64,000 nt of DNA from an uncultured Dechloromonas sp. (lineage in GTDB: Bacteria; Pseudomonadota; Gammaproteobacteria; Burkholderiales; Rhodocyclaceae). The stretch is taken from NCBI RefSeq assembly GCF_945957265.1, contig NZ_CAMFKO010000001.1:62001-126000 (forward strand). Reading direction: 5' to 3'. The position numbers were made by a program, and so were the translations under genes. Under the pieces are notes generated by a model. The model made no database searches. It was given only the letters and a program-made list of their open reading frames with translations, and was not told where the DNA came from. The first letter of the stretch is position 1. Each line of letters starts with the position of its first letter. Positions 8,596-44,867 of the stretch are shown in pieces.

Positions 8596-9049
8596 CCAAG
8601 CTACTTGCATAACCCCAGCTGCGCCTTTCAAAACCAAATTGGACGATATCGGAACAGACCTTACCCAACTTGGGTATGCGCCTGCATCAGTCGCAAATTG
8701 TGCAGGCGGTCGGTGACAGGGTGACGAAGTGAGGAAAAATTCTTTCAGGTTAGGAGCAGTACGGCACATGGACTGCTGAAACCACTGATCACTGGAAAGA
8801 AAACAACAGCCTAGTGCTACAAGTGGGATACACCTCCCTGCCACTGCTCTCTCAAGAAACCCTCTCGCAAGCGAAGTCGGGCATCTTGCCGCTCATTTTG
8901 GGCGAAAAAAAGCACTCCAAAAGCCCATGCAAATATCGCAACAGTTATTCTGAGCCGTGAGGGCTCATGTGCGAATTTACATCCTGCCCTTGGCGCTTCA
9001 CCACTAACTGATAGCGACCTTATCCGCTCGTTGAACCAAGGAGTTTTCG
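8596..9049. other. 454-bp intergenic region before the fabI-like operon
   Basis: I see no convincing gene here. It carries one near-consensus copy of the island palindrome (8891-8903) 146 bp upstream of the fabI-like start. A possible half-site (AAAAGCCCATGC) lies around 8920. Confidence 0.5.
8891..8903. promoter_or_regulatory. Island palindrome site 1 (GCTCATTTTGGGC)
   Basis: One mismatch to the consensus GCCCATTTTGGGC. It precedes the plus-strand unit 9050-11185. Confidence 0.6.
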
Positions 9050-9835
9050 ATGGCCAAGTACCCCAAGCAAAGCAGCGTCCTCAAAGGCAAGAAGGCATTG
9101 ATTGTTGGAGTCGCAAACGAGAATTCGATTGCTTATGGCTGCGCGCGCGCTTTTCATGAAGCGGGATGCGACTTGGCTATCACCTACCTGAACGAGAAAG
9201 CCAAGCCTCATGTCGAGCCGCTCGCCAAGCAGGTCGAGGCCAGTATTTTCGCCCCGCTGGATGTCTCCAAGCCGGATGAGATGGAGGCACTGTTCAAGCA
9301 GATAGAAAAGAAATGGGGGCAACTGGATATCGTCGTCCACTCCATTGCTTCGGCCAAAAAGGAAGACATCAAGGGCGGGTTGCTTGATTGCTCGGCCGAC
9401 GGATTTGCGCTTGCCATGGATGTCTCGGTTCACTCGTTCATTCGCATGGCCAAACTGGCCGCACCGCTGATGAAGGACGGCGGAAGTATCTTTGCGATGA
9501 GCTATCTCGGCGCCACCAAGGTTATCCCCAACTACAACGTCATGGGACCGGTCAAAGCCGCTCTCGAAGCATCCTGCCGCTACCTGGCTTATGAACTTGG
9601 CCCGAAGAAAATTCGGGTTCATGCCATTTCTCCCGGCCCACTCAAAACCCGTGCAGCTTCGGGTCTGAAGGATTTCGACTTGTTGCTCAACCAATCGATC
9701 AAGCGCGCACCGGTCGGCGAATTGGTCGACATCATGGATGTCGGTTTTGCCGTGGCCTACCTCGCCACACCTTATGCCAGGCGACTGACCGGCGATACGC
9801 TGTATGTTGATGGCGGTGTCAATATCATGGGGTAA
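9050..9835 (+). CDS. FabI-like enoyl-ACP reductase (NADH)
   Basis: 261 aa, the FabI length. It is a short-chain dehydrogenase fold enzyme expected to reduce enoyl-ACP in fatty-acid elongation. The nucleotide-binding loop reads GVANENSIAYG (residues 20-30), a FabI-specific variant. The active-site pattern SYLGA...NYNVMGPVK gives Y152, Y162 and K169, corresponding to Y146, Y156 and K163 of E. coli FabI. It is the first gene of a three-gene plus-strand unit with a hotdog-like protein (9858) and an alpha/beta hydrolase (10328). Being island-borne, it is probably an extra copy; possible roles are a specialised acyl product or tolerance to FabI inhibitors. The ribosome site AAGGAG precedes the ATG. 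Confidence 0.88.
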   Translation: MAKYPKQSSVLKGKKALIVGVANENSIAYGCARAFHEAGCDLAITYLNEKAKPHVEPLAKQVEASIFAPLDVSKPDEMEALFKQIEKKWGQLDIVVHSIASAKKEDIKGGLLDCSADGFALAMDVSVHSFIRMAKLAAPLMKDGGSIFAMSYLGATKVIPNYNVMGPVKAALEASCRYLAYELGPKKIRVHAISPGPLKTRAASGLKDFDLLLNQSIKRAPVGELVDIMDVGFAVAYLATPYARRLTGDTLYVDGGVNIMG

Positions 9836-9857
9836 TGCCCACTTGCCGAGGAATGTC

Positions 9858-10295
9858 ATGCAGAAAACGTTTGAACGCAAAATCAGCCTTACGTTGAACG
9901 ATGCGGGTTATGGCATGCAAATCCGCAAGGGACAATTTATCGATAAGGCGCATCTGGCGCGCCATGAATTTTTTGCTGAAATAGGCTGGGCGAATGTCAG
10001 CCATGAAGGCGTTGCCTGTACAACAGAGGTCATTCAGGACACCATCAACTATGGTGGCCAGGCGCAAATCCTCGAAACGCTATTGCTGAACCTATCGCTC
10101 GAACACATGGCTGATGATCGGACATCCTGCGTCTTGCGTTGGGATTTTCGGCGTGAAGATGGCCAACCGGTGATCATTGTTTGCAGCGAACTGGTCTGGC
10201 TGCGTAGCGATAACGGAGAAAGTGTTCCGGCCCCGGCCGGCCTTGTGGATTGCCTGAACAGCCTGCCCGCTGCACCTGGCCACTTCGCAAGCTGA
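9858..10295 (+). CDS. Probable hotdog-fold thioesterase-like protein
   Basis: 145 aa, starting 22 bp after the fabI-like gene. The alternating strand and helix pattern, with the block HLARHEFFAEIGWANVSHEG followed by a long amphipathic strand series ending in ELVWL, resembles 4HBT/FabA-type hotdog proteins such as acyl-CoA or acyl-ACP thioesterases. No catalytic residue can be assigned with certainty. The position between an enoyl reductase and an ester hydrolase fits acyl-thioester chemistry. A non-catalytic hotdog protein is an alternative. Confidence 0.55.
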   Translation: MQKTFERKISLTLNDAGYGMQIRKGQFIDKAHLARHEFFAEIGWANVSHEGVACTTEVIQDTINYGGQAQILETLLLNLSLEHMADDRTSCVLRWDFRREDGQPVIIVCSELVWLRSDNGESVPAPAGLVDCLNSLPAAPGHFAS

Positions 10296-10327
10296 AGTCT
10301 GTCCGGATCAAGCATCGCGGAGATTCC

Positions 10328-11185
10328 ATGCCTCGTATTCAGACCGGCGACATCGCCCTCAACTATGTCGAACATGGGCAAGGCGAGACCATTGTCCTCG
10401 CCATCCACGGCAATCTGGGTTGCGCGGACTGGCTGAATCTTGCCCTGCCACTGCTACCTGACAATATTCGCGTCATCGCAGCAGAATGGCGTGGCTGTGG
10501 AGATTCGGACAAACCGGAACCGGCGCCGGATTATTCAAATTACACGATGGCCTGCCACGCCCGCGACCATCTTGCATTGCTCGATGCCCTGAAGATAAAG
10601 CGTTGTCACCTATACGGTCATTCGACCGGCGGCATCATCATCTCGCACATGCTAACCATGGCCCCCGAGCGCATCGACAAGGTGCTCATGCTCGACCCGG
10701 TCAGCCCGCTCGGTCTGCAACTGAATCCAGGGCAAATCAATGTACTGACAGCGATGAAGACCGACCCCGACGTCTGCTTCGCCGGCCTGGCCAGTGCGGT
10801 CCCCACACTGTTCCGGCCTGAAACCATGGTAGCCGGCCTAACCCCACAGTTTGCCGATGCTACCAGCTCGGCACAAAAAGCGCTTTTCAAGCACATTATC
10901 GAATGCACCCGCCAGCTGTCGGATGGCATCTGGTTCGGAACGCCGCACAATCTCGGCCAGGAATGGGAGTCCGGCGACCTCGCCAAGCTCATGCCGGAAA
11001 TGCCCCAGGAACACCTGATCCTGTTCGGCAAGATGGATTACTGGATTCCCCGCGAGCATCTCGACATCATGGTCAGTCGACTGCCCAATGCCCGGCTCGA
11101 GGTATTTCCGTATGTCGGCCACTCGATGAATATCGAACAACCGCTGTTGTTCGCACGAATCTTCGGCGATTACTTCCGTAGCTGA
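10328..11185 (+). CDS. Cytoplasmic alpha/beta hydrolase
   Basis: 285 aa, no signal peptide. The fold markers are the oxyanion motif IHGNLG near residue 27, the nucleophile elbow GHSTGG with S99, and the final histidine H265 in VGHSMN; the acid is probably the aspartate in GKMDYW. It is the third gene of the fabI-like unit and converges on the hydrolase/porin operon, with a terminator between them. The substrate is unknown; it is likely an ester or thioester linked to the upstream genes. Confidence 0.8.
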   Translation: MPRIQTGDIALNYVEHGQGETIVLAIHGNLGCADWLNLALPLLPDNIRVIAAEWRGCGDSDKPEPAPDYSNYTMACHARDHLALLDALKIKRCHLYGHSTGGIIISHMLTMAPERIDKVLMLDPVSPLGLQLNPGQINVLTAMKTDPDVCFAGLASAVPTLFRPETMVAGLTPQFADATSSAQKALFKHIIECTRQLSDGIWFGTPHNLGQEWESGDLAKLMPEMPQEHLILFGKMDYWIPREHLDIMVSRLPNARLEVFPYVGHSMNIEQPLLFARIFGDYFRS

Positions 11186-11239: not shown

Positions 11240-12592
11240 TTACTTGGCCAAGCCGGAAGGCTTGGCAGCTGCTGTCGACACACCACCGCCACTGCTGCCA
11301 GTTCCTGGCAACGTCGTCGTAAAAACATCTTCGACAAAAGCCTGCACGGTCTGCCGCAATACGTTCGGCGCCTTGAACACGCCATAGTGGGCCGTCGGAT
11401 CTGGGAAGGAGGCAAAGAATGCGCCATTGACCTGCCCGGCAGCCTTTCGAGCGTTGTCCACCATCAACCACTGATCGGTGTCGACATGCACAACCAGCGT
11501 GCGCGCCTTGATTCGCTTCAAGTCATTGTTGATGTTGTAGCCGAAGCCGCCTTCATTGCGATACCAGTAGTCGACCGGGTCCTCGTTCCGGGTGCGCGCA
11601 ATGAAAGTTGCAGTCTGCTCGCCTTGCGGCTCCCAATAGAACACCTCCTTCTGCACGTTGGCCCAGGGCGAGGCCGAGCGTATCGGAAAGGTCAGTCCGG
11701 TCAACTGCAAGGTGGACCACATGAACTGAAGACCACGCTTGGGATGCTGATCGACTGGCAAATGGTAGTAGTTGCCGTTGGTTTGCCGCCACACCGGATC
11801 GCTCTCGATCGCCGCCTGTGCGAGACGGAAAGTCCACTGCCCGACCGGATCATCGCCGTCGGAAGTCGTGGTGCCGCCGATGGGCATGATCGCCTTGACG
11901 AAGCCGCTCGGTGAGTACATCACGCCCCAGACCCAGGTCTGGGTGCCTCCCATCGATACCCCGGTCGCCAACTCGACCTGCGCCACCTTCAAATGCTCGC
12001 GGAGCAGTCGGTAATTGGCCTGGACCATGTCGAAATAGCTGTACTGCGGGAATTTTCGCCCCAGCCCCTCCGAAGGCTTGGAAGCCCCCCACAAACCCAG
12101 CGCATCGAGGAAAACCACATAGTATTTGTTGGTGTCGATGACCCTTCCTGGCCCAACGACGGCACCTCCCGAAAAGGCATTAGCCGGCTGCCCCTCGAAC
12201 CATGTGTTGTACATGAAGGTCGAATCACCGGAGTAGAAGGTATTGACCACCACGGCATTGACGATTTCGCCCCGTTCGTTACGCCTGGGCGTACCCACGG
12301 CAATGTAGGCGACCTTGAGCGGGCTGGCGCCCAGCGATTCAAGGGTCTTGCCCCCCTCGCCACCATCCCGCCAACTTGCGGGGTCAGCATCCAGGTTGTA
12401 TCTGCCGCCGATGCGGAAATTTGGAATCTCGTAATAGTGCTTGAGCTTGTCCTGGGCCTGCACCGACGAAGCAGGCGTCAGAGACACCCTCTCCCCGGCA
12501 GCCCAGGCCAGCCCGCCGAAGCCCAGCGTGGTGGCAACGGCGATTGCGACGGCATGCGTTCTCACGGCTGATGTCCTCTTGTTTGTGTTCAT
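11240..12592 (-). CDS. Secreted MetX-like alpha/beta hydrolase with Ala-rich KPSGLAK tail
   Basis: 450 aa with an N-terminal signal peptide ending near AWAAG (residue 33). The body resembles the homoserine O-acetyltransferase (MetX) branch of alpha/beta hydrolases: SGGAVVGPG, a product-binding loop DALGLWGASKPS, the nucleophile elbow GVSMGGTQ (S213), then HVDTDQW and PTAHYG supplying acid and histidine. Export makes an amino-acid biosynthetic role unlikely; an esterase acting in the periplasm or outside is more plausible. The start at 12592 follows TGAGGT. It lies 8 bp after the 841-aa gene, whose first domain is its paralogue, and both proteins end in the same KPSGLAK after an alanine-rich stretch. 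Confidence 0.75.
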   Translation of the reverse strand: MNTNKRTSAVRTHAVAIAVATTLGFGGLAWAAGERVSLTPASSVQAQDKLKHYYEIPNFRIGGRYNLDADPASWRDGGEGGKTLESLGASPLKVAYIAVGTPRRNERGEIVNAVVVNTFYSGDSTFMYNTWFEGQPANAFSGGAVVGPGRVIDTNKYYVVFLDALGLWGASKPSEGLGRKFPQYSYFDMVQANYRLLREHLKVAQVELATGVSMGGTQTWVWGVMYSPSGFVKAIMPIGGTTTSDGDDPVGQWTFRLAQAAIESDPVWRQTNGNYYHLPVDQHPKRGLQFMWSTLQLTGLTFPIRSASPWANVQKEVFYWEPQGEQTATFIARTRNEDPVDYWYRNEGGFGYNINNDLKRIKARTLVVHVDTDQWLMVDNARKAAGQVNGAFFASFPDPTAHYGVFKAPNVLRQTVQAFVEDVFTTTLPGTGSSGGGVSTAAAKPSGLAK

Positions 12593-12600
12593 GGCACACC

Positions 12601-15126
12601 TCACTTGGCAAGTCCGGACGGCTTGGCAGAACCCGCCGCCGCGTTTGCAGCGGCCGGCGCATTACCGTTTATGAGCGCATCGACGATGTCAGCCGAAGCC
12701 GTATCGACATGACCTGTCTTCATGAAGTCCACCGTATCCTTGGCAAACTCGTAAGGCACATCCGTATGGATGAAGTGCCCAACCTTCGGATAGATCTTGA
12801 CCTGTGGCGTATTGCCGACGGCTGCCATGCGTTGCTTGAACGGTGTAACGATGCTCTTCGCCATATCTGTCCAGCCATTGAGCGCAGTTCCCGGAATGAA
12901 CGGTTCCTTGGCGCCGAAGGCGAGGAAGATCGGCGCCTTGATCGTCGGCAAACGCTTGTAGATCGAGTTCGGATCTTCCTTGACGTTCTCCGAGCAAATC
13001 GAATACAGATCGTAGGTGAACATGAACGCCCACTGCTCGAATTCACGCTTGTTTCCGCTAATCATGGCAATGCGCTGGTCGGTATGCAGGCGGGCGTATT
13101 CGGTGTCGTTGAAGAAATAGCCCGCCGCACTTGGCAACTCATTCCCCGCCGCATCGCGCTTCTTGAAATAGAAGAAATCGCGCACGGCTTGCGGCGATCG
13201 CTTCAGTTCCCCCTGCACCAGCCCCATCGGATCGTAAGCCGCATTCCAGGCGCGCAGGTCATAGGCAATCGACGGATCGCAGATCGGGTAGGACTTGTCG
13301 CCGAGTTCGATGAATTTCGGGTATTCCTCAAGCCCGGCCGGCCCTTCGAGAATCAGGCCGGCAACGTTGTCAGGATAACGCATGGCGTAACCGAGGACCG
13401 TTTGCCCGCCCAGCGAATGCCCATGGTAGAAGGCTTTCTTGATGCCCAGCTTGCCCACCACCAAGGCCTGGAAGGCGTCGCGCACATCGTTCAGCGTCCG
13501 CGTCATCGGCTTGTCGAGATTGCCTGGGCCGGACATACCCCACTGCGGCATGTCCGGTGCTATGACGCGGAAACCGCGCTCGACGGCATATTTGATCAGG
13601 TAGCCGTAATGCGCACCGAATGCCCCCTTGCCATGAACCACCACGAGTACCGGCGGATTCCGCGACTTGCCGCAGTATTCGTCCATGTAGCCCAGTTCCC
13701 ATTCGACACCGCGCTTGTCCTTCACCTTGGCGTACTTGACTGGGAACGGCGACACCATCTCGTCTTTCCAGAACGACTTGTTGGGGTTGGGCTTCATATT
13801 GATCTTCGGCGAGCGGTAGTTCTTCGCCTCGCAAACGATACTCTTGTCCTCGATGATGCCGATGTCGCGCAGATAGCTATCGACGATCGGATTCGTCTTA
13901 AGCGTATTAAGTGCCTTGAACACCGCGTAGTGCGCCGTCGGATCGGAGAAGCCGGCATACTGGCCGCCGGGAATAGCCTGAGCTGCTGCCCTAGCCTTGT
14001 CGGAAATCAGCCATTGGTCGTTGTCGATGTGTACGACCAGTGTGCGTGCTTTCATCTGGGGAAGCAGGGCGTTGATGTTGTGGATCTCGCCCACCGTATC
14101 GCGATACCACAGGTCGACAGCATCAAACAGGCTGGCCAGTTTTTTCAGGTTTGTACCGGCATTGTTTCCCATGCGCGAATCCGACTGCCAGGAAAACACC
14201 TCCTGGCTCACCGCCTCCCAACCCAGCGACTGGCGATAAGCCAACTCGTAGCCGGTCAGGGAAAGCATCGACCAGTGAAACTCGACGCCCTTGTTCGGAT
14301 GTTTGTCCTTGGGCAGGTCGTAGTAGGCGCCCTTCGTCTCGATCCAGGCCGGGTCGGACTCCAGGGCAGCCTTGGCCAACTGGAACGTCCAGGCCGCGAC
14401 CGGCCCGTCGCCATCGGTTGCCGTCGCCCCGCCAATCGGCACCACGGTCTTGACGAAGCCGGGATACATCAAGCCCCAGTAATAGGCCTGTGTGCCCCCC
14501 ATGGATGCCCCCGTCGCCATCACCACCTGGCCGATTTTGAGGTGATCGCGCAATAGGCGGTAGTTGAGCTGGACGACGTCGTAGTAGCTGTAGACCGGAA
14601 ATTTGCGACCCAAGCCATCGGAAGGTTTCGATGCCCCCCATAGTCCCAAGGCATCGACAAACACGACATAGAAACGATTGGTATCAAAGAGCAGTCCAGG
14701 ACCAACCAGCGCGCCACCCGAGAAGCCGTTCCCCGGCTGGCCGGCATACCAGTTGTTGTACATCGCCGTCGCATCGCCCGAGTAATACGAATTGATGACG
14801 ATGGCGTTGATGATTTCACCCTTGTCGTTGCGCTTTGCTGTTCCAACGGCGATGTAGGCTGTCTTCGCAGGGCTGGCACCGAGCGATTCCAATGTCGTAC
14901 CGCCATCGCCCCCCAAGTCGAAGGACTTCGGATTGGCCAGATCGTATTTGCCACCGATCCTGAACTGCTTGACTTCATAGGTCTGCTTGAGTGCATCGTG
15001 CGCCGGTACTACCGAACGCGGCGTCAGGGCTTGCTGGGCGTCAGCAGCGCTGGCCAATAACAGCGCCAAAACGGCCGAGGCCAACCCAAGCTTGAAACGC
15101 AGGCAGAACAGCGATCTGGTCATCAT
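12601..15126 (-). CDS. Secreted double alpha/beta hydrolase (MetX-like + second hydrolase domain)
   Basis: 841 aa. A signal peptide (to about residue 30, ASAADAQQ) follows a strong ribosome site (AGGAGGAG). Domain 1 (about 31-425) is MetX-like, paralogous to the 450-aa neighbour, with nucleophile S208 in GASMGGTQ, DND near 370 and the histidine in PTAHY near 399. Domain 2 (about 440-800) is a second complete alpha/beta hydrolase with VVVHGKG, nucleophile S571 in GHSLGGQ and the late histidine in KVGHFIH. The chain ends in an alanine-rich linker and KPSGLAK. Two apparently complete active sites in one exported chain suggest sequential cleavage of one polymer or diester. It is the middle gene of the porin operon. 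Confidence 0.78.
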   Translation of the reverse strand: MMTRSLFCLRFKLGLASAVLALLLASAADAQQALTPRSVVPAHDALKQTYEVKQFRIGGKYDLANPKSFDLGGDGGTTLESLGASPAKTAYIAVGTAKRNDKGEIINAIVINSYYSGDATAMYNNWYAGQPGNGFSGGALVGPGLLFDTNRFYVVFVDALGLWGASKPSDGLGRKFPVYSYYDVVQLNYRLLRDHLKIGQVVMATGASMGGTQAYYWGLMYPGFVKTVVPIGGATATDGDGPVAAWTFQLAKAALESDPAWIETKGAYYDLPKDKHPNKGVEFHWSMLSLTGYELAYRQSLGWEAVSQEVFSWQSDSRMGNNAGTNLKKLASLFDAVDLWYRDTVGEIHNINALLPQMKARTLVVHIDNDQWLISDKARAAAQAIPGGQYAGFSDPTAHYAVFKALNTLKTNPIVDSYLRDIGIIEDKSIVCEAKNYRSPKINMKPNPNKSFWKDEMVSPFPVKYAKVKDKRGVEWELGYMDEYCGKSRNPPVLVVVHGKGAFGAHYGYLIKYAVERGFRVIAPDMPQWGMSGPGNLDKPMTRTLNDVRDAFQALVVGKLGIKKAFYHGHSLGGQTVLGYAMRYPDNVAGLILEGPAGLEEYPKFIELGDKSYPICDPSIAYDLRAWNAAYDPMGLVQGELKRSPQAVRDFFYFKKRDAAGNELPSAAGYFFNDTEYARLHTDQRIAMISGNKREFEQWAFMFTYDLYSICSENVKEDPNSIYKRLPTIKAPIFLAFGAKEPFIPGTALNGWTDMAKSIVTPFKQRMAAVGNTPQVKIYPKVGHFIHTDVPYEFAKDTVDFMKTGHVDTASADIVDALINGNAPAAANAAAGSAKPSGLAK

Positions 15127-15181
15127 GACAGACTCCTCCTGGTTGGGTATCGGATATACGGCTGATCGAATGCAGCGCGAA

Positions 15182-16570
15182 TCAGTTGAACGGGATATTC
15201 AGTCCGAGATCGAAACGGATATCGTCTGTTCGCTTTTCGCCGACCAGTGGCCCTCCCGTCTCCCAAACCTTGGCGTAGCGTGCCCGGGCACGCAGGTTCT
15301 TGAAAAAGCCATCTTGCGGGAAGATATAGACGAGATCAGTCGCCAGTTCATCCCAGTCGCTCGCCTTGCTTGCACCCGCAGCGGTCACGGTATGGCGATT
15401 GCGCCTCTGGCCGTAGTTCATGTCGAACTGCAGGCCCTTGGCCCCCATGCTTCCGAAATCAAAGATGGCGCCGACAATCCAGGTCCGTTCGCCAGCCTTG
15501 GAGTTTTCGCCGATCCGCTGCACTAGGTAGGATGGACCTATCGAATAGGGCGAGCGAATATCCTCGTCCTTGGAGGTCATGCCAGCCATCGCGTAAGGGA
15601 TCAGCCATGGCAGCAGGCGAACTTCACCGTACACGCCCCAATAATCGGTGCTGAAATCACGCCCACCGGTTATCCGGTTGGCACCGTTGCCGCTCTGGTA
15701 CATGTACTGCGTGCCAAGACGAACATAGTTTTTGTCGGCCAGGCGGAAGACGTAGTCAAAGTCGACATAGACCATGTTCAGCATGTCCTGGAAGGCATAG
15801 TAGGAGCCTTCCAGCATCATGTTCTTGTTCGGCTTCCATTGCAGCCCGGCATAGGCGGCCCCATCCGAATCGCCCTGCTTGCTGCACGGCGTCGGGTTGC
15901 TCTCCCAGCATGTCGTTTCGTAGGCCGCCGAATAAAGATTGCGGAACTGGTTGTCGTTGATTTGACGCGCCTTCCACACGTAGCCGCCGTAATAACGAAC
16001 GGTATCCTCCGCCAGGCGCCCCTGTACGGTTGCCGCCTCGTACTGGATCGGGTGCATGGCTCGCACATCGCGCCGGCCGATCATGCTTTGATCGAGCTTG
16101 TTGTAGAAGCGCACGACATCTTCCATGTACCAGGCTTGGTTGATCGATTGCCGACCAACGACCAGCGCATGATTTCCGAGGCGCAACTTGGCATTGATTT
16201 CACCCAGCGCACTGACCGCATCCTGACCCGGATCACGCAGGATGTAGTTGTAAGACGTATCGGAGGGGGCATGGAGCGGAACGACAAAATCGTACGCAGC
16301 GCCGAAGGACAAAACCTGCCCGATTTCACCGGTGTTTCCGTAAAGCCAGCCACCGAGGCCCCAGCCTTGTTGCCGGAAATTGCCCGCCCCGCTGCCATCG
16401 CCAGCTGACCGCCGGTCGAAATACGACGAGCGGGCAACCAACCCTGCCTTAGCGTCATCGATGAAGGCATTGCCCGTTTGGGCATGCACTGAAACCGCCG
16501 GCAGAGTGCAGATCAGACCGGCCAGCAAGCTAGCGGTCGAGCGGTGAGACAAATGAAACGCAGTGTCCAT
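15182..16570 (-). CDS. OprD-like outer-membrane porin
   Basis: 462 aa, with a signal peptide ending at VHAQ. Repeated amphipathic strands with aromatic girdles, WLYGNTGEIGQVLSFGAAYDFVVPL near the N-terminus and VVGRQSINQAWYMEDVVRFY, are typical of the OprD substrate-specific porin family. It should let a small substrate cross the outer membrane. The start at 16570 follows AGGAGGAG. It is the first gene of an operon with two exported hydrolases, suggesting uptake of their hydrolysis products. The last residue is asparagine (IPFN), not the usual phenylalanine. Confidence 0.78.
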   Translation of the reverse strand: MDTAFHLSHRSTASLLAGLICTLPAVSVHAQTGNAFIDDAKAGLVARSSYFDRRSAGDGSGAGNFRQQGWGLGGWLYGNTGEIGQVLSFGAAYDFVVPLHAPSDTSYNYILRDPGQDAVSALGEINAKLRLGNHALVVGRQSINQAWYMEDVVRFYNKLDQSMIGRRDVRAMHPIQYEAATVQGRLAEDTVRYYGGYVWKARQINDNQFRNLYSAAYETTCWESNPTPCSKQGDSDGAAYAGLQWKPNKNMMLEGSYYAFQDMLNMVYVDFDYVFRLADKNYVRLGTQYMYQSGNGANRITGGRDFSTDYWGVYGEVRLLPWLIPYAMAGMTSKDEDIRSPYSIGPSYLVQRIGENSKAGERTWIVGAIFDFGSMGAKGLQFDMNYGQRRNRHTVTAAGASKASDWDELATDLVYIFPQDGFFKNLRARARYAKVWETGGPLVGEKRTDDIRFDLGLNIPFN

Positions 16571-16726
16571 GACTCCTCCTTTTATTGATATCGTTTTTCT
16601 CGACCTCGGATGCCCCCATACGCACCTGGCAACCCAACGACTCATCCGATCACTGCGGAGCTAAGGTCGACCATTTCAGATTAAGAACAAAGAACCTAGC
16701 GGGCAATCGGTACAGCAGGGGATTTC

Positions 16727-36207: not shown

Positions 36208-36222
36208 GCCAGGTACTAACTA

Positions 36223-36635: not shown

Positions 36636-37763
36636 ATGTCCGGCCAGAACCACACTTTTTCTCGAACACTGCCTCTCGTCATCACAGTGTTTCTGGGCAT
36701 GAGCGCTTGCAAGGAAGAAGCCAAAATGGTTTCCGCCCCACCTCCCGAGGTGGTCGTACAAACGGTCGCCGCCCGAACCACACCGCTGACGGTCGACCTG
36801 GTAGCCGAGATCAAGGCGTATCGCGAAGTCGATCTTTACCCGCGCGTCTCCGGGCAGGTCATCAAGCAGAACTTCAAGCCCGGGCAGAAGGTCAAGGAAG
36901 GCGAACTGCTGTTCAGCATCGACCCGCGCGCGTACGACGAGGCCATCATCGATGCCCAGGCCAAGCTGGCCGAGGCCGAAGCGGTACTCGCCCGCACCCG
37001 CCAGGATGTCGAACGCTACAAGCCATTGCTGCCGGACAATGCCATCCCCCGCCAGACCTACGATCAGGCGGTCGCCTCCGAACGACAGAACGGTGCTGTC
37101 GTCCAAGCACGCCGCGCCGGGCTGGAGAAGGTTCGCCTCGACCGCTCCTACGCCGACGTGCGCTCTCCCATCGCCGGCCAGATTGGCCTGCAGAAGATCG
37201 AAGTCGGTGCGCTGGCGACAGCCGGACAGACCGTGCTGGCCACGGTATCGACGCTGGATCCGGTGGTCGCTTACTTCAGCATCCCGGAAATCGATTACCT
37301 CAATTTCGCCAGGCGCTTCCAGGCCACCAAACGCGAGGATAAGGCGCCAATCGAACTGATCCTCGCCGATGGCAGCACCTATGCGCAGAGCGGCCAACTC
37401 GATTTCGCCGACCGGGCGCTCAACCCGGCCACTGGCACCCTGACGCTACGCGCTGTCTTCCCCAACGCCAGCGGCTTGCTCCGCCCCGGCTTGAATGCCC
37501 GTGTCCGCATCGTCCATGAAGTTGCTCAGAATGCATTGCTGATCCCTCAGAAAGCCGTCACCGAACTGCTCGGAAAGCAGTTCGCCAGCGTCGTAGCGGC
37601 GGGCGACAAGATCGAGCAACGCCCGATCCGTACTGGCGCCCGTATCGGCGAATTGTGGCTGGTCGAGGATGGTCTGAAGGCCGGCGAGCGTATCGTCGTC
37701 GATGGACTGCAGAAGGCACGCCCAGGCACGGTGGTTAAACCGGTCGCTGTAGCCCAGCCGTAA
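36636..37763 (+). CDS. RND efflux periplasmic adaptor (membrane fusion protein)
   Basis: 375 aa with a lipobox-like end to the signal (GMSAC near residue 25). The HlyD-type arrangement is visible: barrel-sandwich lipoyl halves (YPRVSGQVIKQNFKPGQKVKEGELLFSIDP and VRSPIAGQIGLQKIEVGALATAGQ) flanking a helical hairpin, then a beta-barrel and membrane-proximal domain. It links the inner-membrane pump at 37773 with the outer-membrane factor at 40898. It is the first gene of the RND unit. Confidence 0.93.
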   Translation: MSGQNHTFSRTLPLVITVFLGMSACKEEAKMVSAPPPEVVVQTVAARTTPLTVDLVAEIKAYREVDLYPRVSGQVIKQNFKPGQKVKEGELLFSIDPRAYDEAIIDAQAKLAEAEAVLARTRQDVERYKPLLPDNAIPRQTYDQAVASERQNGAVVQARRAGLEKVRLDRSYADVRSPIAGQIGLQKIEVGALATAGQTVLATVSTLDPVVAYFSIPEIDYLNFARRFQATKREDKAPIELILADGSTYAQSGQLDFADRALNPATGTLTLRAVFPNASGLLRPGLNARVRIVHEVAQNALLIPQKAVTELLGKQFASVVAAGDKIEQRPIRTGARIGELWLVEDGLKAGERIVVDGLQKARPGTVVKPVAVAQP

Positions 37764-37772
37764 GGAGCCAGC

Positions 37773-40700
37773 ATGGCCAGGTTCTTCATCTTCCGGCCGG
37801 TGTTCGCTATCGTCACCGCCATTGTCCTGACGCTGGCCGGGATCATCGCCGGCATCAGCTTGCCGATTGCCCAGTATCCACAGATCACCCTGCCGACCAT
37901 CCGCGTCAGCGCCGTCTATCCGGGCGCCAGCGCCGAAATCGTCGAGCAGGCGCTTGCCCAGCCCATCGAGGAGCAGGTCAACGGCATCGAAGGCATGCTC
38001 TACATGAGCTCCAGCTCGGCAGGCAACGGCGGCTATAACCTCGATATCACCTTCGGACTCGACAGCGATGCCGACATCGCCGCCGTGCAGGTCCAGAACC
38101 GTGCTTCGCAGGCAAACGCCCGCCTGCCTTCGGAAGCGATCAGCGCCGGCATCACCACCAAGAAACAGACCCCCGACGTCCTGATGTACTTGGCTCTGGT
38201 TTCGCCGAAAGGTACTTACGACGAACTGTTCCTGGCCAACTACGCCACGATCAACGTTGTCGAAGCCATCAAGCGGGTCAAAGGTGTCGGCAACGTCAGC
38301 CTGTTCGGCGCCGAATTCGGCATGCGTATCTGGCTGAAGCCGGACCGGATGGCCAGCCTCGGCATTACGCCGACCGATGTGCATCGAGCCATCCAGGAGC
38401 AGAATGCCCAGGCACCGGCCGGCCAGGTCGGACAGATGCCTGCCCCGAAAACCCAGCAATTCCAGTACGGTGTGGAAGTTCGCGGTCGCTTGTCGGAAGT
38501 GAGTGAATTCGAGGAGATTATCGTCCGCGCCAAGCCGGATGGTTCCTTCATCCGTGTCCGCGATGTCGCCCGCGTCGAACTGGGCGCCAAGGAATACGTC
38601 TTCCAGTCGCGCCTGAACGGCCAACCGGCGGCGGCCTTTTCGATCAACCTGACGCCGGATGCCAGCGCCATCGAGACCGCCGACCTGATCAACGCCGAGT
38701 TGAAGCGTCTGGCCACGGCCTTCCCGGCCGACATGAACTACGACGTGGTACTCGATAACACGGTCTTCGTCAAAGCCTCGCTCAACGAGGTCAAGAACAC
38801 CTTCATCGAAGCGCTGATCCTCGTGCTGGTCGTCGTTTTCATCTTCCTGCAGAACTGGCGGGCGACGATCATTCCGATGCTCGCCGTGCCCGTATCGCTG
38901 GTTGCCACCTTCGCCGCCTTTACCGTACTCGGCTTCACCATCAACACCCTGACCCTATTCGGCATGGTACTGGCCATCGGTATCGTGGTCGATGATGCCA
39001 TCGTGGTTGTCGAAGCGGTCGAACATCACATGGAACATAGCGGCCTGAATGCCCGCGATGCCACCCTGAAGGCGATGGAAGAAGTCTCCGGCCCGGTGGT
39101 TGCCATGGCGCTGATCCTGTGCGCGGTCTTCGTACCAGTCGCCTTCCTCGGGGGCATTTCCGGCGTGATGTACAAGCAGTTCGCCATCACGATTGCCGTG
39201 TCCACGGCCCTTTCCGGTTTCGTCGCCCTGTCGCTGACCCCTGCCTTGTGCGCCACGATGCTGAAACCGAAGGACAAGACTGCGGCCAACCGTGGCTTCT
39301 TCGGTGCCTTCAACCGGGTCTTCGACCGCCTGACCGATGGCTATGAGCGCAAGGTACAGATGATGATCCGGCGCAGCTTGCTCTCGTTGGCCATGCTTGG
39401 CATCCTGATCTTCGTCGCGGTCGGCCTGATGAATCGTGTTCCCGGCGGTTTCGTGCCCTCGGAAGACCAGGGTTATTTCCTCGGCAGCGTGCAGCTCCCC
39501 GCCGCCGCTTCGCTCAACCGAACCCTGGCCGTGACCGAAAAAGTCGATGACATTCTCAAGAGCTACGATGCCGTCGACAAGCGCCTGATCATCAATGGCT
39601 ACAACATCCTGAACGGCGCCCCGCAGTCGGACAGCGCCCTGTTCGTCACCACTCTGAAGCCTTGGTCTGAACGTGCCACGGATTCGCTGAAGACCGTCCT
39701 GCTCGGCACCTACCAGCAGGGTGGCAAATTGCCGGAAGCCGTAGTTCTGGGATTCAACCCACCGCCGATTCCCGGCCTGGGCGCAACAGGAGGATTCTCT
39801 TTCAAGCTGCAGGATCGCTCCGGTGGCACACCGCAGGAACTGGCCAAAGTCGCCGATGACTTCATGGCTGCCGCCCGACAGCGGCCCGAAATTGCCAGCA
39901 TCTACTCCAAGTTCAATCCGCGTACGCCGGCCTTCCGGCTGGCGGTCGACCGGGAGAAAGCCAAGAAACTGGGCGTACCGGTATCCGACATCACCAACGC
40001 CTTACAGACCTTCCTCGGCGGCTTGAATGTCAACGACTTCAGCCGTTTCGGCCGTACCTACAAGGTCACCATGCAGGCCGAGCCGGAATACCGCAGCGAT
40101 ATCCAGGGTATCGGGCTGTTCCACGTGCGCAATGGCGACAACCAGATGATCCCCTTGTCGACCTTCGTGACGCCAATGCCGACCAGCGCCCCGACCGTGC
40201 TCGAACGCTACAACCTGTACCGCACGGCCGAGCTCGGTGGTAATCCGGGCGCCGGCTTTAGTTCCAGCGAAGCCATCCAGGCCATGGAGGAAATCGCCGC
40301 AACCGCCCTGCCGCCCGGCTACGGTTTCGAGTGGTCAGGTATCAGCCGCCAGGAAAAGGAATCAGCCGGCAAGGCGCCCATCGTCTTCGCGATGGCCATC
40401 GTTTTCGTCTTCCTGTTCCTCGCCGCCCTGTACGAAAGCTGGGCGATCCCCTTCGCCGTCCTGCTCGCCGTGCCGCTTGGTGTATTTGGCGCCATGCTCG
40501 GCCTGTGGCTAACCGGGCTGACGAACAACATCTATGCCCAGATCGGCCTGGTCCTGCTCATCGGCCTGGCAGCGAAAAACGCTATCCTGATCGTCGAATT
40601 CGCCAAGATGAAGCGTGAGCAAGGCGAAGATGCAGTGACCGCCGCTGTCGGCGCGGCGAAGCTGCGTCTTCGCCCGATCCTGATGACCTCCTTCGCGTTC

Positions 40701-40901
40701 ATCCTTGGCGTGGTGCCGCTGATCATATCCGCCGGGGCCGGCGCCGCAGCGCGTGTATCGATGGGTATCACCGTCTTTGGCGGCATGCTGGCGGCAACGC
40801 TGCTCGCCATCTTCATGGTGCCGGTGCTCTTCGTGGCCGTCGACCGCATCGTCGCGCGCTTTGCGAAAAAGCCTGCCGGCCAACAGGAGACACAGGCATG
40901 A
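37773..40901 (+). CDS. RND multidrug efflux transporter (HAE1 family)
   Basis: 1042 aa, full length. It has twelve transmembrane helices and two large periplasmic loops. The proton-relay aspartates are in GIVVDDAIVVVEAVE on helix 4, and the family motifs (N-terminal IFRPVFAIVTAIVLTLAG, GLAAKNAILIVEFAK on helix 10) are intact. It exports hydrophobic compounds using the proton gradient. The stop overlaps the next start by 4 bp. Confidence 0.96.
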   Translation: MARFFIFRPVFAIVTAIVLTLAGIIAGISLPIAQYPQITLPTIRVSAVYPGASAEIVEQALAQPIEEQVNGIEGMLYMSSSSAGNGGYNLDITFGLDSDADIAAVQVQNRASQANARLPSEAISAGITTKKQTPDVLMYLALVSPKGTYDELFLANYATINVVEAIKRVKGVGNVSLFGAEFGMRIWLKPDRMASLGITPTDVHRAIQEQNAQAPAGQVGQMPAPKTQQFQYGVEVRGRLSEVSEFEEIIVRAKPDGSFIRVRDVARVELGAKEYVFQSRLNGQPAAAFSINLTPDASAIETADLINAELKRLATAFPADMNYDVVLDNTVFVKASLNEVKNTFIEALILVLVVVFIFLQNWRATIIPMLAVPVSLVATFAAFTVLGFTINTLTLFGMVLAIGIVVDDAIVVVEAVEHHMEHSGLNARDATLKAMEEVSGPVVAMALILCAVFVPVAFLGGISGVMYKQFAITIAVSTALSGFVALSLTPALCATMLKPKDKTAANRGFFGAFNRVFDRLTDGYERKVQMMIRRSLLSLAMLGILIFVAVGLMNRVPGGFVPSEDQGYFLGSVQLPAAASLNRTLAVTEKVDDILKSYDAVDKRLIINGYNILNGAPQSDSALFVTTLKPWSERATDSLKTVLLGTYQQGGKLPEAVVLGFNPPPIPGLGATGGFSFKLQDRSGGTPQELAKVADDFMAAARQRPEIASIYSKFNPRTPAFRLAVDREKAKKLGVPVSDITNALQTFLGGLNVNDFSRFGRTYKVTMQAEPEYRSDIQGIGLFHVRNGDNQMIPLSTFVTPMPTSAPTVLERYNLYRTAELGGNPGAGFSSSEAIQAMEEIAATALPPGYGFEWSGISRQEKESAGKAPIVFAMAIVFVFLFLAALYESWAIPFAVLLAVPLGVFGAMLGLWLTGLTNNIYAQIGLVLLIGLAAKNAILIVEFAKMKREQGEDAVTAAVGAAKLRLRPILMTSFAFILGVVPLIISAGAGAAARVSMGITVFGGMLAATLLAIFMVPVLFVAVDRIVARFAKKPAGQQETQA

Positions 40902-42274
40902 TCCGCCGTACCCCCATTGCCGCCATGCTGGCCTGCCTGTTCGTGACCGGCTGCGCCCTTGGCCCGGACTACCAGCGTCCTGCCATCGACTTGCCTGAAG
41001 TTCACAGCGGCAGTTCCGCCCGGGCTACCGGCGAAACCTCTTCCCTGGCCAAGCAGAATTGGCGCGATGTGTTCACCGACCCGGCCCTCAAGGCCTTGAT
41101 CGACGAAGCGCTCACGGCCGGGCCGGATGCGCTGCTGGCAGCGGCCAGGCTGCGCGAAGCGGAGGCCCTGGCCGGCGTCAGCCGAGCACCGCTATTGCCA
41201 CAAGCCTCTCTCTCGCTGAATACCTCGCCCACCGTGCGCCAGCCCGGCGAACGCTTCACCGCCAGCTATCTCGGCGGGGCCGGCATTTCCTGGGAAATCG
41301 ACCTGTGGGGACGCTATCGCCGCGCCAGCGAGGCAGCCCAGGCCGAACTGCTGGCGAGTGACGAAGCCCGCCATGGCATGCAGGCTTCGTTGATCGCCAG
41401 CGTCGCCCGCTATTATTTCCAACTCGCCACGCTGCATGAGACGCTGACCGTGACCGAGCGCAGCGCCAAAAACCAGGCGGAAGTCCTGCGACTGATCAAG
41501 CGCCTCTCTGCCGCCGGCATTTCCTCAGCCGCCGAAGAACGCCAGCAGGAAAGCGCCCTGGCGACCACGGAAGCCAGCCTGCCGCCCCTGCGCCGGCAGA
41601 TCGCCGAAACCGAGAATGCACTGGCCATACTGCTCGGTCGAGCCCCCGGCGCGCTGCGCCTGGAGTCGCCGCCACAACTGGCGCTACCGGGTTTTATCCC
41701 GCCCGGCTTGCCCTCCTCTCTACTGGAACAGCGACCGGACATCCGCCAGGCGGAAGCACGTCTGATGGCAGCCAACGCACGTGTTGGCGAAGCGAGAGCC
41801 CTGTTCTTCCCCAGCCTGTCGCTGACCGCAATCTTTGGCGGAGTCAGTACCAGCCTGGCCGATGTCGTACATGGCCGAGCACCCGCCGTCGCTTCCGTCG
41901 GCCCCAATCTGCTCCAACCCCTGTTCGCTGGCGGCCAGATCTACTTCAACAAGCAGGCCGCCGAAGCCCGGCTGGAGCAAGCAGTAATCAGCTACCGCAA
42001 AACCATCCTGAATGCGCTGGGCGAAGTCGCCAATGGCTTGGTCGCCTACGAAACCGGCAACGACCTGATGGATATCCAGGCGCGCCGTGTCGCCGCTTCG
42101 CGGGAGGCGATGCGCCTCGCCGACCTGCGCTTCCGCGCCGGCACGACGAACTTCCTCGAAGTACTCGACGCGCAGCGCCAACTGCTCGCCGCCGAGACCC
42201 AGGAAGCCCAGGCCCTGCTGGAAAAACGGCTAGCGCTGGTCAACGTCTACCTGGCCCTGGGAGGCGGCTGGTAA
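40898..42274 (+). CDS. RND outer-membrane factor (OprM/NodT type lipoprotein)
   Basis: 458 aa with a lipobox (FVTGC, residue 19) followed by ALGPDYQRP, the signature opening of NodT-family channels. Two helical repeats (LIDEALTAGPDALLAAARLREAEA and LLEQRPDIRQAEARLMAANARVGEARA) mark the outer-membrane-factor domains. It completes the tripartite pump. Confidence 0.95.
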   Translation: MIRRTPIAAMLACLFVTGCALGPDYQRPAIDLPEVHSGSSARATGETSSLAKQNWRDVFTDPALKALIDEALTAGPDALLAAARLREAEALAGVSRAPLLPQASLSLNTSPTVRQPGERFTASYLGGAGISWEIDLWGRYRRASEAAQAELLASDEARHGMQASLIASVARYYFQLATLHETLTVTERSAKNQAEVLRLIKRLSAAGISSAAEERQQESALATTEASLPPLRRQIAETENALAILLGRAPGALRLESPPQLALPGFIPPGLPSSLLEQRPDIRQAEARLMAANARVGEARALFFPSLSLTAIFGGVSTSLADVVHGRAPAVASVGPNLLQPLFAGGQIYFNKQAAEARLEQAVISYRKTILNALGEVANGLVAYETGNDLMDIQARRVAASREAMRLADLRFRAGTTNFLEVLDAQRQLLAAETQEAQALLEKRLALVNVYLALGGGW

Positions 42275-42293
42275 GCCACTCGCTGAGCAAACC

Positions 42294-43556
42294 ATGAGTG
42301 CCATCCAGACCATCGCCTCGATCCGCTGGATGTTGTTGCGCAGGCTACTGGCAGTCTGGCTCGTCGTATCGCTAGTAGCCGCCGGCATGACCTACTACCT
42401 CGAAGTATCCCGCTTCGAGGAGGGTCTGGTTGCCATCGCCAGCGAGGAAGTCCGGCATCTCTCGACCTCGCCCGCTGGCGATACAGACGAAGCGCAAAGC
42501 CTGTTGGCCAACGAAACGCGGCAATTCATCAGCACCCACTACCTCTGGATCAAGGTGCATGACGATCAAGGCAAGCTGGTTCGCGAACTTGCCAACCCGA
42601 CATTCGAGAAACTGACCGATCAACTCCAGCCCAGCATTCAGGCAATGGCACGGGATGGCCGACGCCATTTCGAGAAACTGCAGATTGGCGAGCAACCGGT
42701 CATTCGAATTCTGGTGACAGTGCCTGCGCCGGAAGGAAAACTGTTCCTGGAGGGTGCATTTCTTCTCGACCGCCTGACCTTGCAGCAGCAACGTGCAAAA
42801 ACTTGGCGCACCATCGGTTTCGTTCTGCTCTCCAGCCTGCTGACCGCCCTTGCCCTGTACCCGGTGGTACTGCTCCTTTACCGTTCGCTGATCAAGGCAT
42901 CGAAAGAAATCCTGCGCGGCAACCTCGAAATCGCCGCGGTGCTGGGCAGTGCCATCGCCAAGCGGGATTCCGATACCGGCGAGCACAATTACCGAGTCAC
43001 CCTGTATGCGATTCATCTGGCGAAAGCTGTAGAAGCCCCGACTGAGGCTATGCGCGGCCTGATCATCGGCTCCTTCCTGCACGATGTGGGCAAGATCGGC
43101 ATCCCCGATGCGATCCTGCTGAAGCCAGGCAGACTGGATGATCAGGAATTTGCCGAAATGCGGGAGCATGTCCGCCTGGGCCTTGAAATCGTCGCCGATT
43201 CGCATTGGCTCAAGATTGCCCGCGACATCATTGGCCATCATCACGAAAAATATGACGGCAGCGGCTATCCAAAGGGCTTGCGGGGCGATGAAATTCCTTT
43301 CGCAGCACGCATTTTCGCCATCGTCGATGTGTTCGATGCCTTGACCTCACGCCGCCCGTACAAGGAGGCGCTGACCGCCCAGCAAGCCCTGGAAATTCAG
43401 GGAGAAGGTGCGGGCAGCCATTTCGACCCCAGCCTGCTGGAACAATTTAGGCGCATCGCTAGCCAGCTACATTCGGAAATCCACGACAAAAACGAGGCCG
43501 AGCTTCGTGAATCGCTGACTGGCCTGCTGCCCCGTTACTTCCTGAAACTCAACTGA
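42294..43556 (+). CDS. Membrane HD-GYP protein (putative c-di-GMP phosphodiesterase)
   Basis: 420 aa. Two transmembrane helices (about 16-36 and 170-195) bracket a periplasmic sensor domain. The HD-GYP domain is complete, with DTGEHNYRVTLYA, SFLHDVGKIGIPD and HHHEKYDGSGYPKGL. It lies 19 bp after the efflux genes and is probably co-transcribed, which links cyclic di-GMP breakdown to efflux. It opposes in function the GGDEF enzyme at 24576. Confidence 0.88.
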   Translation: MSAIQTIASIRWMLLRRLLAVWLVVSLVAAGMTYYLEVSRFEEGLVAIASEEVRHLSTSPAGDTDEAQSLLANETRQFISTHYLWIKVHDDQGKLVRELANPTFEKLTDQLQPSIQAMARDGRRHFEKLQIGEQPVIRILVTVPAPEGKLFLEGAFLLDRLTLQQQRAKTWRTIGFVLLSSLLTALALYPVVLLLYRSLIKASKEILRGNLEIAAVLGSAIAKRDSDTGEHNYRVTLYAIHLAKAVEAPTEAMRGLIIGSFLHDVGKIGIPDAILLKPGRLDDQEFAEMREHVRLGLEIVADSHWLKIARDIIGHHHEKYDGSGYPKGLRGDEIPFAARIFAIVDVFDALTSRRPYKEALTAQQALEIQGEGAGSHFDPSLLEQFRRIASQLHSEIHDKNEAELRESLTGLLPRYFLKLN

Positions 43557-43564
43557 TTGGTGCC

Positions 43565-44797
43565 ATGGAACAGGATCTCGTCACTCGTGCAAGGCAATAC
43601 GCCGTCGAATTCCATGAGCGTATCGACCAACGGCGCAAGTACTCCGGACAACCGTACGAAGCCCACTTGAAAGCGGTCGCCGATATCGTTGCTGGCGTGT
43701 CCGACGACCCGGCCACCCTGGCGGCAGCCTGGCTCCACGATGTCGTCGAAGACACCCCCGCCACCATAGAAGATGTGGCCCACGAATTTGGCACTGATAT
43801 TGCAGAATTGGTCGACGCGCTGACCGATGTCAGCCGTCCCTCCGACGGTAACCGAAAGGAACGCCGGGCAATCGACTGCGCACATCTGGCCAGCGCGCCG
43901 CCCCGCGCCCAGACCGTCAAATTGGCCGATCTGATCGACAACTGCGACGACATCTGTCGGGCTGACCCACGTTTTGGCATGGTGTTTCTCCAGGAAGCGA
44001 ATGATCTCGTCGGCGTCTTGAAGGCAGGCGATCCCCGCTTGATCGAGCGGGTGAAAAAACTGATCGGGTACTGGAGCAAAAAACTCGCTGGAGAATCAAC
44101 AGACTTCGAAAATTCCGGCAATCACCAGACAGGGCCTCACCAACGTCAAATTCTGAGCGTGATACTGAACCGCTTCGAAGCCAGGGATCTCGGACGCCCA
44201 TTGGACAAGCGCAAAACCTGGAAGCCTTCACAAGTCGTCAAAGGTAACGCCTCCTTCATCGACATCGTCAATGTGCTGACCCGCCATCAAAACTGCATTG
44301 TCGAAAGAGATGACGATGCACCGCTGCTGGTCACGCGTGATGATTTCAGCAGCCCCCTAGCCCGCATGTGGCTGTTCGGTATCCTGACCTCAATCGAAAT
44401 GGACATGAAATGGCACATCCGGCGAACGATGGATGCGGAGCAATGGGCCAACGGACTATCCGACGGAAGACTCCGGATGCTCAGCCAATTGATGGAAGTG
44501 CGGAGCCGCCGAAATCAGCCGTGCGACCTCCTCGACTGCCTGCAACTAAGCGATCTGCTATCGCTGATCATTCACCAGGCAGGCCATCCCGGCGCCCTGG
44601 GGTTCAAGTCACGAAGAAGCGTAAAACGGGCTTTTGGCGATATCGAGACCTTGCGTAACTACATTGCCCACAGCCAGGAAATCGGTGATCCGCTTTGGCC
44701 CAGCATTGCTCGTTTGGCGCGCCACTTCTGGACCAACAGCGAATCATCGGGCAGCAACAATGAAATTGAGGATTGCCAAGGTAGAGAGGCGATTTAG
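43565..44797 (+). CDS. HD (RelA/SpoT-type hydrolase)-CBS-like-HEPN-like fusion protein
   Basis: 410 aa, 8 bp after the HD-GYP gene. The N-terminal domain matches small ppGpp hydrolases: H34, the pair H58-D59 in WLHDVVEDT with E62-D63, and KLADLIDN with D122 and N126. A second part from about residue 230 resembles a degenerate CBS segment (SFIDIVNVLTRHQNCIVERD...LLVTRDDFSSPLARMWLFG). The C-terminal helical part has SVKRAFGDIETLRNYIAH, where R364-N365-x3-H369 matches the RNase motif of HEPN domains. Predicted roles are (p)ppGpp hydrolysis with a nucleotide-sensing part and a possible RNase end; none is proven. Confidence 0.75.
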   Translation: MEQDLVTRARQYAVEFHERIDQRRKYSGQPYEAHLKAVADIVAGVSDDPATLAAAWLHDVVEDTPATIEDVAHEFGTDIAELVDALTDVSRPSDGNRKERRAIDCAHLASAPPRAQTVKLADLIDNCDDICRADPRFGMVFLQEANDLVGVLKAGDPRLIERVKKLIGYWSKKLAGESTDFENSGNHQTGPHQRQILSVILNRFEARDLGRPLDKRKTWKPSQVVKGNASFIDIVNVLTRHQNCIVERDDDAPLLVTRDDFSSPLARMWLFGILTSIEMDMKWHIRRTMDAEQWANGLSDGRLRMLSQLMEVRSRRNQPCDLLDCLQLSDLLSLIIHQAGHPGALGFKSRRSVKRAFGDIETLRNYIAHSQEIGDPLWPSIARLARHFWTNSESSGSNNEIEDCQGREAI

Positions 44798-44854
44798 CCT
44801 CCACTGTGCTATCACTTTGAAATGAGCATGGCTACCGATGCTCGTTTCAAGCTG

Positions 44855-44867
44855 ACCCAAATTGGGC
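44855..44867. promoter_or_regulatory. Island palindrome site 9 (ACCCAAATTGGGC)
   Basis: Two differences from the consensus; the symmetric core CCCAAATTGGG is a perfect palindrome. It lies 107 bp upstream of gltS. Confidence 0.6.

Follow-up and report, generated by a model that had tools for sequence, protein, structure and literature searches.

A palindromic candidate operator across the cargo of a Dechloromonas genomic island and its putative winged-helix regulator

Why would one short palindrome stand upstream of every cargo unit of a mobile island, and which protein would read it? The question is raised by an island of about 48 kb in an uncultured Dechloromonas sp. (contig NZ_CAMFKO010000001.1, positions 62,001 to 126,000; this whole stretch of 64,000 bp is called the window here), in which the 13-bp palindrome GCCCAAAATGGGC and variants of it recur. 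From comparison of sequences, we think it highly probable that the protein encoded at 27990-28514 (P0001) reads the palindrome as its operator, across a single cargo regulon. The site, its pairing with the regulator and its co-occurrence with the cargo rest on comparison; dimeric binding, repression, signal and output are what we infer.

Occurrence and placement of the palindrome

The consensus, RCCCA-WWW-TGGGY, consists of two inverted 5-bp half-sites. Exact copies of GCCCAAAATGGGC lie in the window at 22167 (minus strand), 26222 (plus) and 36534 (plus), as the original prediction had stated, and the variants that it listed are also at their positions, four of them (8891, 16727, 22344 and 25505) with a single mismatch, one (44855) with two and one (25490) with three. 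The prediction let the series begin at 8891; its nine sites hold, but the first site is now 8663, which it had not reported. The ten sites are as follows.

8663..8675, tenth site ACCCAACTTGGGT, between the integrase gene and fabI, 374 bp upstream of fabI (matrix score 13.25)
8891..8903, operator of the fabI unit, one mismatch (mismatch scan and matrix)
16727..16739, operator in the divergent region of the OprD-like porin/hydrolase unit (minus) and the RhlA-like hydrolase (plus) (mismatch scan and matrix)
22167..22179, exact operator of the msrP-msrQ-TAXI unit (minus) (genome-wide exact scan and matrix)
22344..22356, operator of the small protein 22542-23129 (plus) (mismatch scan and matrix)
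25490..25502, second, weaker operator in the GGDEF-nhaA/SYLF divergent region (matrix score 12.6)
25505..25517, operator of GGDEF-nhaA (minus) and SYLF (plus) (mismatch scan and matrix)
26222..26234, exact operator upstream of pldA, the 27428 gene and the regulator gene (exact scan and matrix)
36534..36546, exact operator between the divergent rrm-mscS-pqi (minus) and mfp-rnd-oep-HD (plus) units (exact scan and matrix)
44855..44867, operator ACCCAAATTGGGC of gltS (mismatch scan and matrix)

A count of all places with up to three mismatches in the window is uninformative (34 observed, 30.1 expected from shuffles), and it is on the scale of the genome that the clustering appears. The 4.02-Mb genome contains three exact copies of GCCCAAAATGGGC, all of them inside the window, and 7 of its 11 places with at most one mismatch are there too, in 1.6% of the genome (binomial P about 8e-11); for the perfect form GCCCA-N3-TGGGC the figure is 4 of 11 places. 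The original prediction had held that three perfect 13-mers are beyond chance, and had named a similar density of the motif elsewhere in the genome as evidence that would count against it; these counts agree with the former, and no such density is found. In other genomes, the 13-mer is not rare. It occurs in 21 of 100 sampled genomes (the source genome included), and its WWW form in 97 of 399 genomes of the order, both at background level. Three copies, however, are present only in the source genome, which rules out a chromosome-wide regulon of the host genus, as none of the other genomes among the 100 has as many.

A matrix of 21 positions, made from 36 different sites (37 chosen), all from genomes other than the source, ranks the same places highest in the window: 22167, 26222, 36534, 44855, 16727, 25505, 22344, 8891, 8663 and 25490, with scores from 23.3 to 12.6. 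The training sites were picked with at most one core mismatch, so the near-invariance of their core is partly by construction. A scan with a position matrix had been proposed as a check, and all nine predicted sites are among the top ten. The next-best match in the window scores only 9.2 (58388), and no operator is seen by matrix scan at the recombination and maintenance part of the island (46712-54947), in line with the predicted absence of sites there and in the core flanks. As a control, 258 kb of the same genome were scored in 15 stretches, five of which were picked for a known match or a regulator paralogue. They contain four sites scoring at least 14, three in picked stretches and all four inside open frames. 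The best match outside the island is ACCCATTTTGGGT at G000:C13:41871 (L127 6772), with a score of 15.3, inside an open frame. The two or three weakest island sites (8891, at 15.1; 8663, at 13.25; 25490, at 12.6) are thus not above the best background and rest also on their position. All ten sites, the nine predicted to lie between genes as well as 8663, are intergenic, where by our gene list 13% of the island is non-coding, and nine of the ten have a unit start no more than 200 bp downstream. Genome-wide rarity, clustering in the window and matrix ranking together rule out chance as the explanation.

The cargo falls into eleven units, each of which was predicted to have a site 30-190 bp upstream. 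All eleven do, with gaps of 32-185 bp from the nearest site to a plausible start, where starts downstream of the longest open frame were chosen for GGDEF, the rhlA-like gene, pldA and 22542. The gap is 35 bp at rrm, 32 bp at GGDEF and 81-185 bp at oprD, the rhlA-like gene, msrP, 22542, mfp and gltS; three sites or site pairs (16727, 25490/25505, 36534) serve divergent units. The units, with the three genes of the pldA unit given separately, are:

9050..11185, plus, FabI-type enoyl-ACP (acyl carrier protein) reductase and hydrolase unit (family scans)
11240..16645, minus, OprD-like porin and hydrolase unit (family scan)
16830..17810, plus, alpha/beta hydrolase, the RhlA-like protein of the prediction (family scan; probable start)
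18435..22061, minus, msrP-msrQ-TAXI unit with a short CitMHS-type piece at its end (family scans)
22542..23129, plus, small protein, family unassigned (no Pfam or NCBIfam match)
23269..25457, minus, GGDEF-nhaA unit (family scan; probable start)
25589..26185, plus, SYLF (Ysc84-type) protein (family scan)
26318..27406, plus, pldA, phospholipase A1 (Pfam PF02253; probable start)
27428..27934, plus, protein of 168 amino acids with a signal-like N end by eye (sequence reading)
27990..28514, plus, regulator P0001, 174 amino acids, last gene of the pldA unit (probably co-transcribed)
28560..36498, minus, rrm-mscS-pqiA-pqiA-pqiB-pqiC-hydrolase-DUF3313 unit (family scans)
36636..44797, plus, mfp-rnd-oep-HD-HD unit, with an RND protein of the AcrB/MexB class (family scans)
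44974..46167, plus, gltS (family scan)

By Pfam, the cargo comprises FabI, hydrolases, an OprD-like porin, MsrPQ, TAXI, NhaA, GGDEF, SYLF, PldA, PqiABC, MscS, RRM, an AcrB-type RND system, HD proteins and GltS.

Pairing of the palindrome with a winged-helix family

The original prediction had named the 27990-28514 protein as the possible reader of the sites, and comparison with its relatives strongly supports this. Named genomes were scanned with a 14-member alignment, in which members known to have sites were mixed with members without, and the best 80 of at least 242 confirmed loci (from at least 596 stretches) were taken. Within -300 to +60 of the start of the regulator match, exact GCCCA-N3-TGGGC is found at 13 of the 80 loci, and with at most one mismatch at 25; for 19 permuted half-sites the corresponding numbers are at most 3 and 6. 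When all 1,024 half-sites are compared at these starts, GCCCA is first (13), ACCCA second (5) and the next, the best unrelated one, reaches 3. After reduction to less than 60% identity, for which one of 42 representatives was dropped with less than 300 bp upstream, the exact form is at 7 of 41 loci, where all half-sites average 0.04, and the one-mismatch form at 17 of 41, against at most 7. Since protein similarity, irrespective of any site, decided which loci were taken, they are independent evidence for the pairing of site and regulator. With P0001 alone as the query, a palindrome with at most one mismatch lies just upstream at 6 of 24 places in other genomes (L010, L011, L014, L016, L018, L020).

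The regulator homologues that have sites range from Thauera to Verrucomicrobia, Methylocystis and an acidobacterial metagenome-assembled genome (MAG; L066); in four Thauera loci, 23 bp separate the end of the site from the start of the regulator gene. In 23 other genomes, 20 of 36 sites lie inside the fetched regulator locus, a hand count that is descriptive, as the 24 loci were mostly chosen for having a site. The operator is thus met at the regulator gene itself in relatives; in the window, there is no site directly in front of this gene, which would be reached only via the pldA unit (26222). In a Rhizobiales MAG (L107, 679-1609), four perfect palindromes surround a regulator homologue in less than 1 kb. 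At L018 (1-2322), where the upstream site is GCCCATTTTGGGT, the frame of the homologue continues without a stop into sequence that, by reading, is alkane-hydroxylase-like.

What kind of protein is P0001? Its structure model (mean predicted local distance difference test score, pLDDT, 91.6) has helices within residues 15-66, a winged helix at about 93-130 and a long helix at 137-163. Invariant in 39 homologues are D48, P103, E105, T106, R108, R109 and K110. Most of these are located at the recognition helix, which fits the near-invariant CCC/GGG of the chosen sites. P0001 stays below the cut-off of every Pfam and NCBIfam model, and the homologues match generic helix-turn-helix models over the DNA-binding part only (best E 1.2e-8). 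The likeness to IclR-type regulators such as PcaR/PcaU and TtgV lies in the winged helix, for which they give the best, though weak, matches: among solved structures, 8eju (Pca regulon regulator) at E 0.0016 and TtgV at E 0.064. The IclR helix-turn-helix model PF09339 gives 19.8 bits with P0001, below its curated cut-off of 22, and the PcaR/PcaU model matches 16 of the 39 homologues at E<=0.001, though its bit scores fall well short of what NCBIfam requires. The target of TtgV is an RND pump. The IclR family, however, has a C-terminal effector domain, to which the 174-residue P0001 has no Pfam match. Judged by eye, the model may resemble MarR proteins, as a small regulator whose winged helix is flanked by helices on either side, but P0001 matches neither PF01047 nor PF12802 at E<=0.01, and only a minority of its homologues match MarR models (PF01047 in 2 of 39 and MarR_2 in 10 of 39, at E<=0.001). 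The recognition segment PRETVRRK has no match in the open-access literature searched, and this is a winged-helix regulator family for which no description was found there. The type of regulon would be ordinary, its island-wide reach unusual.

A rearranged relative of the island and homologues of its cargo

Comparison with related islands had also been suggested as a check. A homologous island is present on contig JACDZI010000028.1 (L143 and L038) of the MAG Rhodocyclaceae bacterium ppb04, which belongs to the same family as the source genome; 34,809 of the 37,169 bases of the contig were seen. Most cargo families are there in a different gene order, with identities of 81% (rnd), 66% (mfp), 69% (pldA), 80% (fabI), 57% (mscS), 83% (gltS), 67% (nhaA), 36-59% (pqiABC), 55% (regulator) and 38% (rrm). 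Eight places on this contig score at least 11 with the matrix, one of them, at 1523, before mfp. Perfect sites lie at 6351, 118 bp before the open frame preceding mscS, at 10478, 69 bp before the gltS frame, and at 15181 and 17527, before open frames without a homologue in the window; an exact site at 24254 lies between pqiA and the regulator gene, and those at 880 and 17225 are inside open frames. Sites are therefore found at several cargo units of ppb04 despite rearrangement, and the many-site layout has so far been seen in two islands. Together with the regulator pairing, the ppb04 sites support, on a comparative basis, the earlier view of the cargo as a single regulon for envelope, lipid and efflux functions.

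Among the 80 regulator loci, the genes that recur near the regulator are RND genes, often downstream of it, the 27428 protein (5 of 80 at E<=1e-6, 4 of 80 at 1e-8), pqi, pldA, mscS and HD genes. For pldA, eight of 61 listed places were fetched. Homologues (42-66%) on stretches that come from the same taxonomic family and have no regulator homologue have a site scoring at least 11 in 0 of 6 cases; the other two (L143, L149), on contigs with a regulator, have sites. Homologues of rrm have a site within 350 bp upstream in 6 of 8 cases, four of which, all in Thauera, share the site of the divergent regulator. In the fetched loci, the operator is most regularly accompanied by the small RRM-type protein (36223-36498; homologues L037, L038, L040-L044).

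Mode of control and competing explanations

We propose that a dimer of the 27990-28514 protein would bind the operator with one half-site per subunit, since the site is a palindrome, via the helix around the invariant P-ETxRRK. Bound at or near promoters, it would repress the eleven cargo units, and its own gene through the 26222 site before pldA. A signal tied to membrane-active or lipophilic compounds may release the repressor, so that the RND pump, the MCE/Pqi lipid transporter, phospholipase, FabI, porin, mechanosensitive channel and ion transporters would come on together. As to the signal, 30 neighbouring open frames of relatives were scanned, 11 of which have no match. Thiolase, 3-hydroxyacyl-CoA dehydrogenase, enoyl-CoA hydratase, three short-chain dehydrogenases/reductases, a lipoxygenase and two alginate-export-type porins would fit an acyl or lipophilic compound; a sulfatase, a TonB receptor, chemotaxis receptors, enzymes using pyridoxal phosphate and thiamine pyrophosphate, an HMGL-like synthase and a mutase have no special bearing on one. 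Such a signal is, then, a lead and not a result.

If the site, regulator and regulon are as proposed, repression is the probable mode. The placement of sites close to the starts of rrm, GGDEF and the four Thauera regulators favours it. So would one promoter-like sequence at 36605-36577, on the strand of rrm, which matches at 10 of 12 positions (0.2 expected) and would have the 36534 site about 30 bp downstream of its -10. The sigma-70 scans covered two regions; in the other, 22040-26400, there are two promoter-like matches, which is the chance number, and none is at a site. The same operator and regulator could instead serve activation, which we regard as unlikely. At oprD, the rhlA-like gene, msrP, 22542, mfp and gltS, the nearest site is far enough from the start to leave room upstream of a -35, but at rrm, GGDEF and the Thauera regulators an activator would overlie the promoter or transcript start, and the 36534 site would be downstream of the -10 of the promoter-like match.

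Several observations weigh against a repressor paired with this operator throughout the cargo. An activator, too, would be compatible with the gaps of 71-185 bp seen at several units. No site scoring at least 14 is found within 350 bp at 42 of 76 regulator-family loci, a count in which some of the regulator sites scored are themselves matrix training sites. The association of regulator and palindrome at the level of genomes in the order sample is weak (8 of the 23 genomes with a regulator homologue, found with the P0001 query, vs 89 of the other 376, by hand count), because single chance copies of the palindrome are common. In the 80 loci, most cargo homologues lack a site of their own: mfp 1 of 16, rnd 0 of 17, oep 0 of 13, 27428 0 of 5, ggdef 0 of 9, mscS 0 of 4, pldA 1 of 3, hd4 0 of 3 and gltS 0 of 1. 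Three of 10 fabI matches have one, but all three are dehydrogenases with 24-27% identity, and the true Methyloversatilis fabI (71%) is without a site. In ppb04, the place that precedes mfp by 88 bp (1523) scores 12.4, with one mismatch in its core, and is inside a 552-residue open frame, while 875 bp with short open frames separate the 6351 site from fabI-pldA. Finally, the genome encodes a paralogue of P0001 (L032 / L130, G000:C17:6433-6813), 45% identical and with nearly the same recognition segment, which could share the island sites. It is nevertheless quite improbable that this paralogue, or an unrecognised protein, reads the sites and that the 27990-28514 protein is merely linked to them: matrix and mismatch scans find no site near the paralogue locus, whereas the palindrome stands at homologous regulator genes in diverse phyla. 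A single plasmid-borne homologue (35%) has no site with at most one mismatch at it.

Could the sites belong to a known system? The 13-mer is identical to the core printed for AcaCD of IncA/C plasmids in PMC5058578, and AcaCD was the only bacterial regulatory use found when open-access literature was searched for the motif, its variants and the gene set, the variants being judged by title. The earlier statement that no regulon with this operator is described must be amended to that extent; it stands in so far as AcaCD is an unrelated activator. In PMC5058578 and PMC4207636, AcaCD is described as an FlhDC-type activator of transfer genes with unusually long sites. The systems are alike in the core and in having one regulator for many operons of mobile elements, and the AlpA-like gene of SGI1 has two counterparts here. 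An island wired by an AcaCD-type activator to a conjugative helper, as SGI1 is, would nonetheless be exceedingly improbable. The source genome (91% complete) has no match to the FlhC family (PF05280), which a control search finds in E. coli; the sites are at cargo genes and none is at the recombination directionality factor or the mobility part; the palindrome follows the 27990-28514 family across phyla; and the right-hand extensions of the SGI1 sites, as listed in Table 1 of PMC4207636, are not visible at the island sites by eye. On the missing FlhC, the site placement and the tracking of the regulator family, control of this type is rejected. Given an unrelated winged-helix protein, the longer AcaCD sites and the missing FlhC, the shared core looks like convergence.

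Terminators or RNA hairpins are very improbable as well. The 26222 copy is the centre of a perfect inverted repeat (26206-26250) with 21-base arms, a 3-base centre, a T-rich flank and a fold of -36.9 kcal/mol between SYLF and pldA, and this repeat also resembles a two-way terminator. The other sites, by eye, have no following T tract, stand upstream of starts and, at three places, between divergent genes, and would form stems of five pairs only, with loops of three bases. In 17 of 37 sites the outer bases do not make a Watson-Crick pair (8 A-C, 8 G-T, 1 G-A); this is expected of half-sites read by a protein, but not if either strand formed an RNA stem. By T-tract absence, location and these outer bases, hairpins are rejected as a general explanation.

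Returning to the proposed operator and its regulator, we incline to the view that an undescribed, phylum-crossing family of small winged-helix proteins has a near-invariant operator, RCCCAWWWTGGGY, and that islands may have built large envelope-defence regulons from units that bring or acquire it, under one island-borne switch for lipophilic membrane stress. The pairing in Proteobacteria, Verrucomicrobia and an acidobacterial MAG would make targets predictable wherever the family occurs. Nearly all the cargo of one mobile island would resemble one regulon, with operators present despite changed gene order, and the recurring neighbours (RND pump, Pqi/MCE transport, phospholipase, FabI-type reductases, RRM protein) suggest tolerance to lipophilic compounds. 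A Castellaniella island that has MarR-type regulators and RND pumps is mentioned in two papers on monoterpenes (PMC4109377, PMC4847356); six open frames of locus L053, which might lie in it, include no genes of these kinds.

The remaining features of the island are its ends and its mobility genes:

7167..7179, attL-like 13-bp repeat GACCCCGTCAGGA, within the 3' end of tRNA-Val (repeat search)
7381..8595, plus, integrase beside tRNA-Val, with no operator (named from sequence reading alone)
46712..54947, recombination and maintenance part with a Gp3-like recombination directionality factor, YqaJ, DUF932, two AlpA and a Rep-like protein (family scan)
55298..55310, attR-like second copy of the 13-bp repeat (repeat search)

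The island adjoins the tRNA-Val gene (7111-7186), 13 bases of whose 3' end are repeated at 55298. Window positions 8850-33000, a part of the island, have no DNA match in plasmids. The piece at 18435-18896 encodes 153 residues of CitMHS/SLC13 type, shorter than the Pfam model, and is probably a remnant. The G+C content is about 66% in the outermost 4 kb and lower, at 51.5-62%, from 8 to 56 kb.

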